Origin: Gemmataceae bacterium
GTDB lineage: Bacteria; Planctomycetota; Planctomycetia; Gemmatales; Gemmataceae
NCBI GenBank assembly: GCA_009692005.1
Contig: SHZZ01000001.1
Coordinates: 324,171-388,170, forward strand
Direction: 5' to 3'
DNA: 64,000 nt
Positions 2,934-15,294 of the stretch are shown here, piece by piece. Under the pieces are notes generated by a model that ran no database searches, was not told where the DNA came from, and saw nothing but the letters and a program-made list of their open reading frames with translations. Each line of letters starts with the position of its first letter. Position 1 is the stretch's first letter. Made by a program: the position numbers and the translations under genes.

Positions 2934-4202
2934 GTGTATACTCTGTTTGGAAAGTCACCTCGCTTCTGTGATGGAATTAACCGCAGAAATTTCATGCGGA
3001 TTGGCGCCTTCGGCGCATCGTTAACACTCGCTGATATGTTGCGGGCTCGTGAAGCAGGCAATTCTGGCACAGCGAAATCTGCCATCATGATATATCTTCC
3101 TGGTGGCCCCTCTCACATGGATATGTGGGACCTCAAACCTCAAGCGCCGGTCGAATACCGCGGCGAGTTCAAGCCTATTGCCACCAATGTTCCAGGTGTG
3201 CAGATTTGCGAACATTTTCCCATGCAAGCGCAAATGTTCGACAAACTATCTGTCGTTCGAAGCTTGGTGTCGGTCGATGAACATTCCGACTCTTTGGTAA
3301 TGTCTGGCTACCGTGAGAGTACCAACAGGGTTTTCCATCACCCTTCGTTTGGGTCGGTGGTTTCCAAATTGCAGGGCGGGCAAGGCGATATCCCTCCCTT
3401 TGTTAGCTTGCGTGGCATGTCTATTGGAACGGAACCCGGGTACTTGGGGATTGCCAATCGTCCCTTTACGCCGGACGGGCCAGGGTTGCAAAACCTGCGC
3501 TTGGCTAGCGGTGTGGATGAAAACCGCAATGACGCTCGCAAGACGCTTCTTAATGATTTCGATACGATCAAGCGGGAAATTGATGCCACTGGCACCATGC
3601 GGGGTATGGATTCTTTTAACACCCGGGCCTTTGACATGGTGGCCTCGGGCGCGGCGCGCAGGGCTTTAGACCTGACTCGGGAAGAACCCCGCGTTCGCGA
3701 CCGCTACAAGGGTGTTGAACAATTCTTGACTGCCCGCCGTTTGGTGGAAGCGGGAGTTGGCTGCGTTACTTTGGCCTACGGTGGTTGGGATACCCATTCG
3801 GGTAATTTCAAAACCTTGAGGAATCAGCTTCCGGCCTTGGATCGTGGCATTGCCAATCTCGTGCAAGACCTGCACGACCGCGGCATGGAAAAAGATGTTG
3901 TCACCGTCTGCTGGGGTGAGTTTGGCCGTACCCCGAAGGTGAATGGCAGCGATGGCGGGCGTGACCACTGGTCCCCTGTCATGGGTTGCATGGTTGCGGG
4001 TGGTGGATTGAAAATGGGACAAGCCATTGGCGCTTCCAGCGCCCGGGGCGAATACCCAATGGACCGCAAGTACGAAGTGCCCCAGGTCCTCAGTTCCATT
4101 TACCAGGCCATGGGAATTGATCCAGCCAAGACCTTCCCGGATAATTCCGGTCGGCCGATGTCTATTCTCGACCAGCGGGATCCGGTTTCGGAATACTTCT
4201 AA
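2934..4202 (+). CDS. DUF1501 domain-containing protein with Tat-like leader
   Basis: The 422-residue product is a typical planctomycete DUF1501 protein, a family in the alkaline-phosphatase/sulfatase fold group found in large numbers in Planctomycetes; its substrate is unknown. The N-terminus has a twin-arginine-like segment (NRRNFMRIGAFGASLTLADM), which suggests export. Diagnostic blocks follow: IYLPGGPSHMDMWDLKP, CEHFPMQA, a VTVCWGEFGRTPKVNG segment and a final DNSGRPM. The GTG start is set by a strong GGAGGG at 2920-2925. A promoter lies upstream and a bidirectional terminator downstream, so this is probably a single-gene unit. In other planctomycetes such genes often pair with DUF1549/cytochrome proteins; no such partner is present here. 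Confidence 0.92.
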   Translation: MYTLFGKSPRFCDGINRRNFMRIGAFGASLTLADMLRAREAGNSGTAKSAIMIYLPGGPSHMDMWDLKPQAPVEYRGEFKPIATNVPGVQICEHFPMQAQMFDKLSVVRSLVSVDEHSDSLVMSGYRESTNRVFHHPSFGSVVSKLQGGQGDIPPFVSLRGMSIGTEPGYLGIANRPFTPDGPGLQNLRLASGVDENRNDARKTLLNDFDTIKREIDATGTMRGMDSFNTRAFDMVASGAARRALDLTREEPRVRDRYKGVEQFLTARRLVEAGVGCVTLAYGGWDTHSGNFKTLRNQLPALDRGIANLVQDLHDRGMEKDVVTVCWGEFGRTPKVNGSDGGRDHWSPVMGCMVAGGGLKMGQAIGASSARGEYPMDRKYEVPQVLSSIYQAMGIDPAKTFPDNSGRPMSILDQRDPVSEYF

Positions 4203-10535: not shown

Positions 10536-11255
10536 TTATTTTCCCTGGGCCAATTCCAAACGCCCAGGCCCAAAACCCAGGCGATTGGTCTCCAGGTTTT
10601 TTCCTCGAATAGTTAAGGCTCCTTTTTCGATGCTTAAGGCTTGTAGGAGTATGCTTGGTTTGTTTTGGTCAGCCTGAAAGCGTAAAACCGCCACGGGTTT
10701 GCCTTTGAATCGGTACCAGGTCACTTCGATGCCGTTTTGACGAGCCAGGTCCGCAGCCTTGTCAAATAGGGAGATCAGGGAAATGGGCACAACTCCGGCT
10801 TTTAACGATTCCAATTGAATAGCAAGCACATTTGGTTCATCCTTGGCTAGCCACAATTTCATGTCGGCGCTGATTACGGTGGTCCAGGGGTGTTGCCCCA
10901 GGCGAAAACCGAGGCGGAGGCGGTCTTGGTCCATGCTAATGCGCGGGGCCTGGATGTAATCCGGTAACAGCCTGCCGGGTTTGCCGCTTTGATCTAATTC
11001 TTCGGCAAAAAAACTGTTGATTTGTTCTTCGCGGAAAAGCCCATACCATTCTTTTTCATTGGTTGCCGCAGCAATGAATTCAAAACATTCCGTGGTGAAC
11101 TCCATCGATTTTTTAGCTTGATCCGGGTGATGGAATTGGGTGCTTCCCTTGTAAAAGGAAGGTTCATAGCGGAGCAAAAAATAAAGTCCCCCGGTGGCTA
11201 GGGAAACCAGGCCAAGGCATAAAATTAAAGCCAACATCCAAGTGTAACGGGCCAT
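10536..11255 (-). CDS. Membrane-anchored hypothetical protein
   Basis: I do not recognise a named family. The 239-residue product has one N-terminal membrane helix (WMLALILCLGLVSLATGGLY) followed by about 205 residues that would lie outside the cytoplasmic membrane. The soluble part has alternating hydrophobic strands (DRLRLGFRLGQ, VISADMKLWL, NVLAIQLESL). This, with the overall size, is reminiscent of YpmS-like/DUF2140 or LEA-type beta-sandwich proteins anchored by one helix, but I cannot confirm that. It converges on the cytidylate-kinase-like gene with one base between them. The 199-bp gap on its upstream side separates it divergently from the large subtilase gene; that gap holds a small inverted repeat (GGTAG/CTACC at 11345-11356) and no gene. 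Confidence 0.65.
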   Translation of the reverse strand: MARYTWMLALILCLGLVSLATGGLYFLLRYEPSFYKGSTQFHHPDQAKKSMEFTTECFEFIAAATNEKEWYGLFREEQINSFFAEELDQSGKPGRLLPDYIQAPRISMDQDRLRLGFRLGQHPWTTVISADMKLWLAKDEPNVLAIQLESLKAGVVPISLISLFDKAADLARQNGIEVTWYRFKGKPVAVLRFQADQNKPSILLQALSIEKGALTIRGKNLETNRLGFGPGRLELAQGK

Positions 11256-11454
11256 CCGTTGGCAGCCTCCTAAGCGGAAAATCGGAATAATCAGAACTTC
11301 CGTAACAAGAACCAGGCAGCGGAGTCAACTGGGACTATTTATTCCGGTAGGACTACCTTGCTTGTTTTACCTATGTTAACTTTTTACTTGTAATCACCTA
11401 TCCGAAACCATTACTCTCAATTTATTCCAGTCCACCTTTCCTTTGAGGTTGATC

Positions 11455-14400
11455 ATGTTGCAGGCAATTAAAAATTGGCGGAAAAAATCCAAGTTAATTC
11501 AAAATTCCAAAAAACCCTTTAGTCCAGCCAGGAGTTTGGGTGTGGAACCTTTGGAGGCCCGGGTTCAACCGGGGTCTTTAATTTCCCCCCTTCTGGATAG
11601 CTTGGGCGTTTCGCTTCTCTCCGCGCTCATGCAACAGATGCAACCCGACACTCTTGCGGTTGAATCTCAAGGCTATGAGCAAGGAGACGCGGCTTCCCTC
11701 CAACAACACCAGGATACTTCAGATCAATCGGACGGCGCCCTGGGTGTGGTCATTAGCACGACCCAGGATCAGGGAACCCAAGGGCAGGTTGATCAAATCC
11801 AAAACAACGATTCTGTGTCCCTTTCTTCAACTCAAACGGTTTTTGGCATCAATCCTTTGGGAATCCAAGGAGATAATGTTCTTTCGTTAGGGGTTGGTTT
11901 GAATGATGCGGATGAGAACAGTTCGCTGGCGGGGTCGGGCTCCTCGCAAGAGGATAGTTCCATAACGGACTTGGGAAATGGCGGTTCCAATTCAACCGGA
12001 TTTGGCGATGCGGATTCCAGCTTGGGGGGAAATAACGACTCCTCCGGCACGGGCCCGGAAGGGCCTCCGGATGATTCCGGCAATTCCACCTCACAAGATT
12101 CCGAAAACAATTACGGGGGCGGAGGAGATTCGTACAACTCGAATGATGCTTCTCAATCGGCTGGGAGTTCTTCACAGGGATCAGATAATTCCGTGGACCT
12201 GAATAGCGGAAACGAGGGAAGCAATGGCTTGAACCTGGATTCCGGGAATGGGAATTCCGGCAATGGCGATAACCAGGGTGTGAATCTTAACCTCGACTTG
12301 AATCTTCCAATGGATGGGAGCCAAGGGGGCAGTGGTGCGGATTTGGATCTAGTCCTAACTACACCGGATGATGATGCCAATTTGCCTGCTATTGAACTTG
12401 GGATGCCTGACATTGGTGGGCCCAATCTCTTGCTTGGAAACTTGGGTGAAATTGGAGTGCTCGACCAACTCATCGTTCCCGACTTGGATCAGGAAATCCC
12501 ACAGTTTGGCCCCTTGGACGGCATACCTGTTGAAGACCCTGCCGTAGATCCCGCGAACCCAGTGAACCCCAATCAGGGGCAGCAGGGAAATCCGGGTGGC
12601 GGTGGACAAGTCCAGGGTCAGGGAAACATTAATCAAGGAAATCCCCAGTTCGGCGACCCAGGGTTGGGCGGTCTTGGCGGGTTATTGCAAGGCCCGGGCT
12701 TGGGCGGTTTTGGCGGCGGCGGTTTTTTCAATTGGGGTGACAATTTTGGTTTTGGCAATGGGCCTTTGGGGAACAATGGTGGCGGGGCGGATGGAAATAA
12801 CCAGAATTTATCCCAGCAGGGTGGGGGACAATATTTTGGCGGGTCAGGCACCATGGATATAGGAAATGGGAACGGCGAAGCCGGCAATAGCCCTGCTGAT
12901 AATGGCCAGGGTGGCGATCTTTCCAATGATCCAGGAAACCCCGGGGGCGGGCAAGGCGGTAATCAGCCTGGTGGTAATCAATCCGATGCGGGCGCATCGG
13001 GAAACAGCGCCGGATCGGGAGTTCCCGGCACCGGAGTCCTTTTGGTTGCGCCAGAATTTGTCCGCCGCAATGAAAGCGACATTGTCGTGGTTAGCATAGG
13101 CGAGGCGGTTGCCATTCCGCAGGGTGGAAAAGGTATTCTCGACCGCGACATCAACCGGGATGGGGATTTCCTCGATGCCAATGAATCGAGTTTTAAGACA
13201 TTTGATATTTCTGGCCAGTCAACGGAAATCGATTTTGGCAGCGACGCCAAGGAAGGAACCTACCGCTTGCGCGCCAGGGTGGGAACCGTTTCCAGTAATG
13301 TGGCCGAAATGGTTATTGACTGGCATTCAGGTTACATAGGAGACCAGCAATTGCTGGAAATCGTTGCCGACCCCAATTATTCGGCAGGCAGGGCCGAAGG
13401 CGAGTCCGCCAAGGTGTCCGTGCAGGCTCGCTGCACGCTGGCCAAATATCTTGGGGATTTCACCAAGTCGCTCGAGGCCATGGGGATGGAGAATATTCAT
13501 GTAGCTAAAGCGCAAAACCTGGTAACGGGAACCATCGATGTTTCCCGCGTTATGGAATTAGAGCAAGTCCCGCATTTCCTGGCAGCGATCAAAGCGCCGA
13601 TGGCCAAAACCAAGGTGGGTTCGGTGACCTCGGAAGGGGCTGCAGTGATTAAGGCGCCGATTTTTATCAGCGCCACTGGATTCGATGGCACGGGAGTGAG
13701 AGTTGGAGTTATCAGTGATTCCGCTTCACCGGCCAGTATTTCTGCTTCGGTATCCTCGGGCGATTTGCCTTCCAATGTCATTAACCTTTCCCCGACGGTT
13801 ACGGGTTCGGATGAGGGAACGGCGATGATGGAAATTGTCTACGATGTTGCGCCGGGCTCGGATTTGGCTTTTCTTGCGGGAACATCGCCGCAAGTCATGG
13901 CGACGGGAATTAGCCAACTTGCCGCTGCTGGTTGCAAAGTCATTGTCGATGACTTGGGCTTTGCTAATACTCCCGTTTTCAATGATGGAATTCTTAGCCA
14001 GGCAATTGACACGATTTCCTCGCAGGGAGTTTTGTATGTCTCCGCGGCAGGAAACGATGGTAATATTGCTTACCGGGCTGCTTTTAATCCTGGCACGACC
14101 ACGATTGGCTCGGTTACCGGTACTTTCCAAGATTTAGGAGGCGGGGTTTTTCTTCAGGACTTTACCCTCGCGCAAGGTGCTATCCTGAATATTTTTTTCC
14201 AGTGGAGTTCAGCTTTCCTTGAAGGGGGATCGCCACTGGCTAATTACCAGGTCACCAACGATTTTTCCGTGTTGATTGTTGATACCGGTGCGGCGACACC
14301 CACGATTTTACAAACATTTGCCAGCGATAGCCAGAATACCGATCAAGCCCTTGAAAGTATAAGTTTTACAGCAACAACCGCCACGACTTATGCCCTTGCT

Positions 14401-15294
14401 TTTCAGTTGATCGTGGGGGCGAACCCCCAGGAAATAACCTGGATGAAATTTAACAGCCAAGTGGATCCCCTAGCCCAGGGACAGGGGGGGCCGACCACCT
14501 TTGGCCAAGTCACCGCGGTGGGTGCAATTGCCGTGGGCGCGGTTGCCTGGAATAATGTCAATGTGCCTGAAACCTACAGCGCCTTGGGCGGGAAATTAAA
14601 TTTTTATTACGACAACCAAGGCAACCCCTTGGCGACCCCAGAAGTTCGCCAGAAGCCCGATATTACAGGGCCGACTAAGGTGCAAACTTCAATGGCGAAT
14701 TTTAACCCGTTCACTGGCACTTCGGCAGCGGCGCCGCATGTTGCCGGTGTGGCCGCCCTGCTCTTTTCTCAGCAGCCAACAGCCACAGTGCAGGAAGTCA
14801 TCGACCATATGTTTGCCACCGCTCTCCCGGTTGGCATCGTCAATAACCCCTTTTTAACCGGCAATGGCTTGGTCCAGGCCATTCCCATGACGGGTGGAAC
14901 CGGGGGCGGTTCCCAGGCGGTGGGAGGGGAAAATAACCACTCCTCGGAAGTGGCGTCCCGCTTTGGCCCTCTGTCTGGCTCGCAAACGATTGCCAACCAG
15001 GTCATTGAATTCAGCCCAGAGGGTTTTCCTCTTTCTGATTGGTTCACCTGGACGGCTGGATTGGAGGGGAACTTTAGCGTGCTGTTACAAGTTTCCGGTG
15101 AGCCCTTGGAAATCAATATTTTTGTCCGGGAAGGGAATGGCCTTGTGCCCGTTGGCAATTCTTCCGGGTCGGGGAATTTGTTCCTTTTCATTCCGGTGTT
15201 GACCGGCCAGGAGGTTTTCATCGAGGTCAAAGGGTTTAACTTTGCTCTGGGTCAGGTAAATACGGGGAGTTACAGCCTGACCGTATCGCTTTAG
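11455..15294 (+). CDS. Large S8-like (subtilase-fold) secreted protein with PPC-like C-terminus
   Basis: The 1279-residue product has a basic N-terminus, then the motif EPLEARVQPG (31-40), like the LE-x-R leaders of planctomycete exported proteins. About 450 residues follow, very rich in Gly, Asn, Asp, Ser and Gln, and then a subtilase domain. The catalytic Asp is D755 (VGVISDS), the oxyanion Asn is N867 (AAGNDG) and the nucleophile is S1090 (FTGTSAAAPHVAG). The site normally occupied by the catalytic His carries Glu: E787 in GSDEGTAMMEIVYD. The last 100 residues form a beta-rich domain resembling bacterial pre-peptidase C-terminal domains. ATG 11455 follows GAGG at good spacing. The protein could be a protease with an Asp-Glu-Ser arrangement reminiscent of sedolisins, or an inactive subtilase. 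A terminator follows. Confidence 0.88.
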   Translation: MLQAIKNWRKKSKLIQNSKKPFSPARSLGVEPLEARVQPGSLISPLLDSLGVSLLSALMQQMQPDTLAVESQGYEQGDAASLQQHQDTSDQSDGALGVVISTTQDQGTQGQVDQIQNNDSVSLSSTQTVFGINPLGIQGDNVLSLGVGLNDADENSSLAGSGSSQEDSSITDLGNGGSNSTGFGDADSSLGGNNDSSGTGPEGPPDDSGNSTSQDSENNYGGGGDSYNSNDASQSAGSSSQGSDNSVDLNSGNEGSNGLNLDSGNGNSGNGDNQGVNLNLDLNLPMDGSQGGSGADLDLVLTTPDDDANLPAIELGMPDIGGPNLLLGNLGEIGVLDQLIVPDLDQEIPQFGPLDGIPVEDPAVDPANPVNPNQGQQGNPGGGGQVQGQGNINQGNPQFGDPGLGGLGGLLQGPGLGGFGGGGFFNWGDNFGFGNGPLGNNGGGADGNNQNLSQQGGGQYFGGSGTMDIGNGNGEAGNSPADNGQGGDLSNDPGNPGGGQGGNQPGGNQSDAGASGNSAGSGVPGTGVLLVAPEFVRRNESDIVVVSIGEAVAIPQGGKGILDRDINRDGDFLDANESSFKTFDISGQSTEIDFGSDAKEGTYRLRARVGTVSSNVAEMVIDWHSGYIGDQQLLEIVADPNYSAGRAEGESAKVSVQARCTLAKYLGDFTKSLEAMGMENIHVAKAQNLVTGTIDVSRVMELEQVPHFLAAIKAPMAKTKVGSVTSEGAAVIKAPIFISATGFDGTGVRVGVISDSASPASISASVSSGDLPSNVINLSPTVTGSDEGTAMMEIVYDVAPGSDLAFLAGTSPQVMATGISQLAAAGCKVIVDDLGFANTPVFNDGILSQAIDTISSQGVLYVSAAGNDGNIAYRAAFNPGTTTIGSVTGTFQDLGGGVFLQDFTLAQGAILNIFFQWSSAFLEGGSPLANYQVTNDFSVLIVDTGAATPTILQTFASDSQNTDQALESISFTATTATTYALAFQLIVGANPQEITWMKFNSQVDPLAQGQGGPTTFGQVTAVGAIAVGAVAWNNVNVPETYSALGGKLNFYYDNQGNPLATPEVRQKPDITGPTKVQTSMANFNPFTGTSAAAPHVAGVAALLFSQQPTATVQEVIDHMFATALPVGIVNNPFLTGNGLVQAIPMTGGTGGGSQAVGGENNHSSEVASRFGPLSGSQTIANQVIEFSPEGFPLSDWFTWTAGLEGNFSVLLQVSGEPLEINIFVREGNGLVPVGNSSGSGNLFLFIPVLTGQEVFIEVKGFNFALGQVNTGSYSLTVSL

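Follow-up and report, generated by a model that had tools for sequence, protein, structure and literature searches.

We analysed a 64,000-nucleotide stretch from a Gemmataceae bacterium of the phylum Planctomycetota (assembly GCA_009692005.1, contig SHZZ01000001.1, positions 324,171 to 388,170 of the forward strand; hereafter the window) that carries a gene for a protein with a subtilase domain. Judging from sequence comparison and a predicted structure, this window protein is probably a secreted subtilisin-fold (clan SB) serine peptidase made as a zymogen, in which Ser1090 would act together with Glu787 and with an aspartate from the strand end Asp832-Asp833, most likely Asp833; within clan SB this would be a third location for the acid. 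The Asp32-His64-Ser221 triad of subtilisin is absent from it, the three columns holding Ser754, Glu787 and Ser1090. Across the relatives aligned here, Glu787 is the mark of a whole family and not a single oddity, and the conservation of the rebuilt site across many bacteria and archaea suggests a working enzyme.

Active-site residues of the window protein

We aligned the window protein by phmmer to four subtilisin chains, namely subtilisin DY (1bh6) and three chains of subtilisin BPN'. Residue numbers count from the ATG at 11455, and Asp755, Glu787, Asn867 and Ser1090 are present as numbered. The active-site columns were assigned as follows.

13714..13716, + strand: Ser754, column of subtilisin Asp32
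13717..13719, + strand: Asp755, column of subtilisin residue 33
13813..13815, + strand: Glu787, column of the catalytic His64; proposed general base
13948..13950, + strand: Asp832, column of subtilisin residue 124
13951..13953, + strand: Asp833, column of subtilisin Ser125; proposed catalytic acid
14053..14055, + strand: Asn867, column of the oxyanion-hole Asn155
14722..14724, + strand: Ser1090, within FTGTSAAAPH, column of the nucleophile Ser221

All four alignments placed Ser754 on residue 32 and Asp755 on residue 33; residue 32 is Asp in subtilisin DY and is mutated in the three BPN' chains used. Asp833 fell on Ser125, Asn867 on the oxyanion Asn and Ser1090 on the nucleophile Ser, likewise in four of four. 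Glu787 was placed on His64 in the three BPN' alignments, the 1bh6 alignment being out of register in that stretch. Because eight of eight rows of relatives with His at this column (His-type) held Asp at column 754, His at 787 and Ser at 833, the register is settled, and Asp755 does not correspond to the subtilisin Asp. A preliminary description of the window, made from the sequence alone, had matched Asp755, Asn867 and Ser1090 to subtilisin and had noticed that Glu787 takes the place of the catalytic His, as in sedolisins. The assignments of Glu787, Asn867 and Ser1090 were confirmed by these alignments and, for Glu787, by the His in the eight His-type rows. That of Asp755 had to be abandoned, since the Asp32 column is occupied by Ser754, and the near-invariant acids Asp832 and Asp833 had been overlooked.

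The AlphaFold2 model, built on 79 sequences, showed a confident subtilisin fold (predicted local distance difference test score, pLDDT, 88.6; predicted template modelling score, pTM, 0.83). Its closest solved match was subtilisin BPN' (1sue) with Z 34.3 and a root-mean-square deviation (rmsd) of 1.9 Å over 249 residues, and no close solved relative was found among the 60 best listed of 180 PDB sequence matches. In the model, Ser754 ends a strand and Asp833 directly follows one, with Asp755 and the pair Asp832/Asp833 at or just past strand ends; one helix opens with Glu787, and Ser1090 stands at the start of a long one.

Conservation across Glu-type and His-type relatives

Relatives were gathered from several samples, with every centre genome counted within its own sample. 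In the phylum sample (294 genomes), 19 genomes, among them that of the window, held 23 places, 16 of these Glu-type and 7 His-type. A sample of nearer relatives (59 genomes, 15 with a match) yielded nine new loci that were read, all Glu-type. The Hymenobacter-centred sample covered 296 genomes (15 with a match), and those centred on Roseateles, Lyngbya and a methanogen covered 299, 146 and 148 genomes, with matches in 5, 8 and 30; around these three, weaker matches were mostly His-type subtilases. The genome-contig scan used a pattern that demanded GTS and retained the top 80 of 429; a plasmid scan gave two records, both Glu-type. Five short fragments and the duplicate L002 were dropped before counting, removal of eleven doubly fetched loci then took 205 rows to 194, and places without a locus were left out, including 7 of 18 previously unseen places among the nearer relatives and several elsewhere. 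Of the 194 rows, 145 were Glu-type. Another 21 were His-type and complete in the columns required, some of them being loosely aligned ordinary subtilases. The other 28 went uncounted: L132 is a chance row, and the rest are subtilases, ordinary or fragmentary, with gaps here (including the His rows L151 and L167). By source, the Glu-type rows came from the contig scan (81), the phylum sample (16), the nearer relatives (9), plasmids (2), the Roseateles, Lyngbya and methanogen samples (18), and the Hymenobacter sample together with another scan (19). A family alignment had been proposed earlier as a check on whether the Glu is invariant: the nearer homologues that we examined did carry Glu, and His appeared only in a more distant group.

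Column 754 was Ser in all 143 readable Glu-type rows; L187, whose frame begins past that strand, and L184, which reads N, were taken as unreadable at 754/755. Column 832 was Asp in 143 and Glu in 2 of the 145 rows, column 833 Asp in 144 and Asn in 1, and column 867 Asn in every row. Ser occupied column 1090 in 142 rows, with gaps in three: L179 does have the Ser behind an alignment gap, and L061 and L150 end before the motif, so that all Glu-type rows spanning the motif have Ser. Column 831 (subtilisin 123) held N or S in only 2 of the 145 Glu-type rows, against 19 of the 21 His-type rows; the Glu-type rows have mainly Val (105), Cys (16), Thr (12), Ala (6) or Ile (4) there. The set Asp32-His64-Ser125 was found in 19 of the 21 His-type rows, the other two being L191 and L168, which is misaligned at 754. 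Apart from L168, no row mixed the Glu-type and His-type residue sets. In this alignment, the acid, the base and residue 125 are thus changed together, and the nucleophile and the oxyanion hole have stayed.

Among individual His-type relatives, L191 (genome G1201) has Pro in the residue-125 column, as in PCSK9, and L017-L022, L026, L107, L186, L188 and L189 show the classical Asp-His-Ser columns.

Retention of the Ser and the oxyanion Asn speaks against decay. The preliminary description had argued against decay from a conserved Asp and Ser; the half of this argument that concerns Ser stands, whereas its Asp was the wrongly assigned Asp755. Column 755 was Asp in 136 of the 143 readable Glu-type rows and Asn (4), Thr (1), Ser (1) or Gly (1) in the remainder (L058, L083, L095, L097, L102, L166 and L179, which come from Bacteroidota, Actinomycetota and archaea, with one from the Pseudomonadota sample). 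These counts bear on the proposal that Asp755 is the catalytic acid of an Asp-Glu-Ser hydrolase. Its high conservation and its position in the model, immediately past a strand whose last residue is 754, speak for such a role. The seven rows that lack it nevertheless keep Glu787, Asp833 and the Ser, whereas Asp833 is lost in only 1 of 145, and we regard Asp755 as a very unlikely acid. A Glu-based serine hydrolase is still the best reading, with the triad Asp of the earlier proposal left unsupported.

The same columns may be read as a cluster of four acidic residues in the rebuilt half (Asp755, Glu787, Asp832 and Asp833) that binds metal, either in a metal-dependent hydrolase or at a purely structural site. 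That Asp832 changes only to Glu agrees with this idea. The replacements of Asp755 do not, and a metal mechanism would have no need for the Ser nucleophile, the GTS motif and the oxyanion Asn, all of which are kept; we give this explanation little credence.

Two other sources of Glu787 were also considered. Sequencing error was rejected in view of the presence of the change in the whole family, and chance in view of the coupled columns.

Comparison with sedolisins and classical subtilases

Sedolisins (MEROPS S53, serine-carboxyl peptidases) share with the Glu-type family a Glu at the His64 place, a Ser nucleophile and the subtilisin fold. In S53 sedolisins as described in a 2024 survey of clan SB structures, the catalytic Asp shares a helix with the Glu and follows it by four residues (PMC11593635). 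The Glu-type family has no such Asp, its column 791 being Met in 136, Leu in 5 and Ile in 4 of 145 rows, and its oxyanion residue is Asn, as in Asn867, rather than Asp. The sedolisin prodomain Pro-kuma_activ (PF09286) gave no match in the window protein at E-values up to 1 and was found in none of the 199 genomes sampled from the phylum, the genome G000 included. With the Asp at Glu+4, the oxyanion Asp and a sedolisin prodomain in the window protein all absent, a true sedolisin was rejected. No S53 chain was among the 50 listed VIA-align matches of the model, which in itself excludes nothing.

To subtilases (MEROPS S8, PF00082) the window protein is linked by its Pfam match, its fold, the GTS nucleophile, the oxyanion Asn and a propeptide-like prodomain, and it differs from them in having Ser for Asp32, Glu for His64 and Asp for Ser125. 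It is homologous to subtilases, without their Asp and His.

Siezen, Renckens and Boekhorst (2007) reportedly delineated, by homology modelling, a sedolisin-like subset of prokaryotic subtilases in which the Glu is present and the Asp lies on a beta-strand and not on the Glu helix. The Glu-type family is probably of this kind, which to our knowledge is still uncharacterised. Its database name is presumably CDD cd05562 (Peptidases_S53_like), or the Glr3161-like domain of InterPro. Among the top-ranked titles and abstract openings listed by a literature search, none reported an experiment on the Glu-type family, a weak negative since most subscription journals lay outside its coverage. Papers citing Siezen et al. 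name D-H-S, ED-S and E-H-S groups after that study. The E-H-S group is given in one such paper as the second new subset of Siezen et al., and the Glu-type family differs from it (PMC3937732).

Domain architecture, prodomain and a comparison with Csp proteins

The gene and its domains were laid out as follows.

11455..15294, + strand: protein gene, ATG start, 1279 amino acids
11542..11562, + strand: N-terminal VEPLEAR, read from the sequence
11635..13074, + strand: low-complexity linker, residues 61-540, 23% Gly and rich in Asn, Ser, Asp and Gln
13147..13302, + strand: weak GEVED-like stretch (15.9 bits, under the cut-off of 24.4)
13411..13593, + strand: prodomain, residues 653-713, with the beta-alpha-beta-beta-alpha-beta fold of subtilisin propeptides in the predicted model
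13636..14892, + strand: catalytic domain with subtilisin fold, about residues 728-1146, from Pfam and the predicted model
14068..14448, + strand: all-beta insert between the oxyanion Asn and the nucleophile Ser, containing Trp917, from the predicted model
14974..15291, + strand: C-terminal region; likeness to a pre-peptidase C-terminal (PPC) domain judged by eye only

An alternative in-frame TTG start lies at 11443, giving an open reading frame of 11443..15294 on the + strand. We take VEPLEAR to resemble the LEPR-like motif that surface proteins of planctomycetes carry near the N-terminus. The Peptidase_S8 match (PF00082) scored 54.7 bits against the Pfam cut-off of 21.8 and begins only at profile position 74; NCBIfam gave subtilase matches for the window protein, all sub-threshold, and the C-terminal region had no Pfam family match. 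Two more PF00082 matches are present in the source genome (4.19 Mb, 99 contigs).

Modelled alone, the prodomain reached a pLDDT of 81.3, its best match being Tk-subtilisin with its propeptide (Z 9.1, 1.6 Å over 62 residues), and 16 of its 17 best VIA-align rows were subtilases or their propeptides. The linker that follows it has low model confidence.

The all-beta insert may correspond to the jelly-roll of Csp proteases and pseudoproteases, which share with the window protein a prodomain, a subtilase domain and an inserted beta domain. Trp917 of the insert is present in 144 of 145 Glu-type rows, and the Trp is also common to the His-type rows wherever the column is filled (13 of 13, among 21 rows). 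The likeness raises the alternative of an inactive pseudoprotease, with the subtilisin fold serving as a binding or sensing module like CspC and CspA of Clostridioides difficile. The two top Foldseek matches were the CspC-CspA pair and CspB, Csp proteins are described as having a prodomain and an inserted jelly-roll (PMC3567191, PMC6636752), and two of the three classical catalytic residues are gone from the window protein. The full-length Csp match is loose, however (9pr8: TM 0.51, rmsd 23.7 Å). According to these sources, CspB has Asp-His-Ser, and CspC, with the pseudotriad Gly485, Thr170 and Asp105, has lost the nucleophile, whereas Ser1090 and the oxyanion Asn are kept here. The replaced residues are moreover fixed to particular letters across phyla. 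We consider a pseudoprotease unlikely, though less so than the two alternatives weighed above.

Proposed mechanism

In the Glu-based peptidase that we favour, Ser1090 would be the nucleophile and the Asn867 side chain would form the oxyanion hole, as their aligned positions in subtilisin suggest. Glu787, which opens the helix bearing His64 in subtilisin, would serve as general base by analogy with sedolisins. The acid that holds and tunes this Glu would come from the neighbouring strand end Asp832-Asp833, not from residue 32 (now Ser754) and, unlike in sedolisins, not from the base helix; the likeliest candidate is Asp833, as the Ser125 column that it occupies is next to nucleophile and base. 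Where residue 125 is Asp, residue 32 Ser and residue 123 small or apolar, the carboxylate of the Asp could lie beside the Glu, at the place of either the subtilisin Asp32 or a water. Only the acid-base half of the aligned site is rebuilt, the nucleophile and oxyanion half being untouched.

Distances given in the 2024 survey offer a frame for this arrangement (PMC11593635). In savinase, Ser125 OG is 2.8 Å from the Ser221 carbonyl O, the Ser125 carbonyl O contacts the base, and a fixed water bridges Ser125 N and Asp32. In PCSK9, the CG of the residue-125 Pro lies 3.0 Å from the catalytic Asp, and a residue-125 side chain can therefore reach the acid's place. In sedolisin, Asp84 and Glu80 are 2.6 Å apart and Glu80 and Ser287 2.7 Å (all PMC11593635).

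The N-terminal prodomain would, as in subtilisins, aid folding and inhibit the enzyme until its removal. Subtilisins are cut in the linker following the prodomain, and self-cleavage in the corresponding low-confidence linker after about residue 714 may free it here. The mature enzyme would then cut extracellular proteins.

Several observations weigh against this interpretation. Column 832 is conserved like 833, for which the proposed mechanism offers no explanation; by strand alternation, residue-124 side chains should face away from the active site. One copy from the cyanobacterial sample (L173, genome G1076) is the sole Glu-type row with Asn at 833 and keeps Asp832, which could mean that 832 is the acid or that this copy is dead. 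The Ser in the 81 contig-scan rows is conserved by construction, since the scan pattern demanded GTS, and therefore proves nothing; among the 64 Glu-type rows from other searches, Ser was aligned in 62 and is also present in L179, and L150 ends early. Unrelated folds came close behind the best prodomain match: NapD reached Z 8.7 (rmsd 8.6) and an SBDS protein Z 8.0. Because such ferredoxin-like folds score nearly equal, the prodomain call leans on position before the subtilase domain as well as on Z. Finally, the known Ser-Glu-Asp enzymes are acid proteases, yet named organisms with the Glu-type protein, such as Hymenobacter, Spirosoma and cyanobacteria, do not live in acid habitats.

Distribution, selection and secretion

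The 81 named Glu-type rows, many of them metagenome-assembled, fell into 14 named phyla, with three rows lacking a phylum. The main phyla were Bacteroidota (32), Pseudomonadota (16), Cyanobacteriota (8), Planctomycetota (6) and Methanobacteriota (5). In a tree of 45 Glu-type and 10 His-type rows, from which the trait columns had been removed, the Glu-type rows lay on one side of a branch; as the support of this branch was only 76/72, a single origin is not established. Among three copies from one planctomycete genus, the ratio of nonsynonymous to synonymous divergence (dN/dS) was 0.09-0.12, with dS near 0.95, and the gene is therefore maintained by selection in that genus. Viral contigs scanned with the catalytic domain gave no relative, and the phages searched gave no match.

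Individual copies were observed in varied settings. The plasmid-borne copies belong to Mitsuaria (L027, 263 kb) and Persicobacter (L155, 859 kb). A Methanomicrobiales genome (G297) has five strong places, of which the four that were read (L054, L083, L128 and L134) are Glu-type, an expansion. In genomes G645, G647 and G649 of the planctomycete phylum, the domain occurs within open frames about 3800 residues long. A Saprospiraceae copy is split over two reading frames (L061:1978-3249 and 3253-3639) and seems to be either a broken gene or the product of a faulty assembly.

A Pfam scan of ten relatives found secretion or surface parts beside the S8 domain in six and the S8 domain only in four. 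The additional parts included type IX secretion system (T9SS) tails in L040 and L036, CBM3 in L040, RTX repeats in L046 and L041, a beta-helix in L054, and TSP3 with a sub-threshold dockerin in L042. These findings suggest that the Glu-type family acts outside the cell.

None of the neighbours of the protease gene in the window is obviously linked to it. Upstream lie a protein without known family and a cytidylate-kinase-like gene; a 239-residue protein upstream of the gene (window positions 10536-11255, - strand) had no convincing family match. Downstream on the same strand is a BBP7-like porin gene, with a frame from 15470.

Implications for clan SB peptidases

According to the 2024 survey, 53 representative clan SB structures show two layouts, with the acid on its own strand and a His base or with the acid on the Glu helix, and residue 125 is Ser in all subtilases but two (PMC11593635). 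The Glu-type family fits neither layout. It is conceivable, if on balance doubtful, that it represents a third working layout found across bacteria and archaea, in which the carboxylate would have shifted from strand position 32 to 125, on the opposite side of the base, in exchange for Ser, together with a change from His to Glu, the nucleophile and oxyanion hole remaining as they were; such an enzyme may be active at ordinary pH as the Glu-Asp pair would share a proton.

The present analysis contributes a wide sampling and favours Asp833 (or 832) rather than Asp755 as the acid, and the assignment of Asp833 would be new if Siezen et al. placed the Asp elsewhere. The one annotated family member that we encountered was labelled just "S8 family serine peptidase", a label that implies a triad the family does not have. 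How a His-based triad can become a carboxyl-based one can be tested directly in this family.

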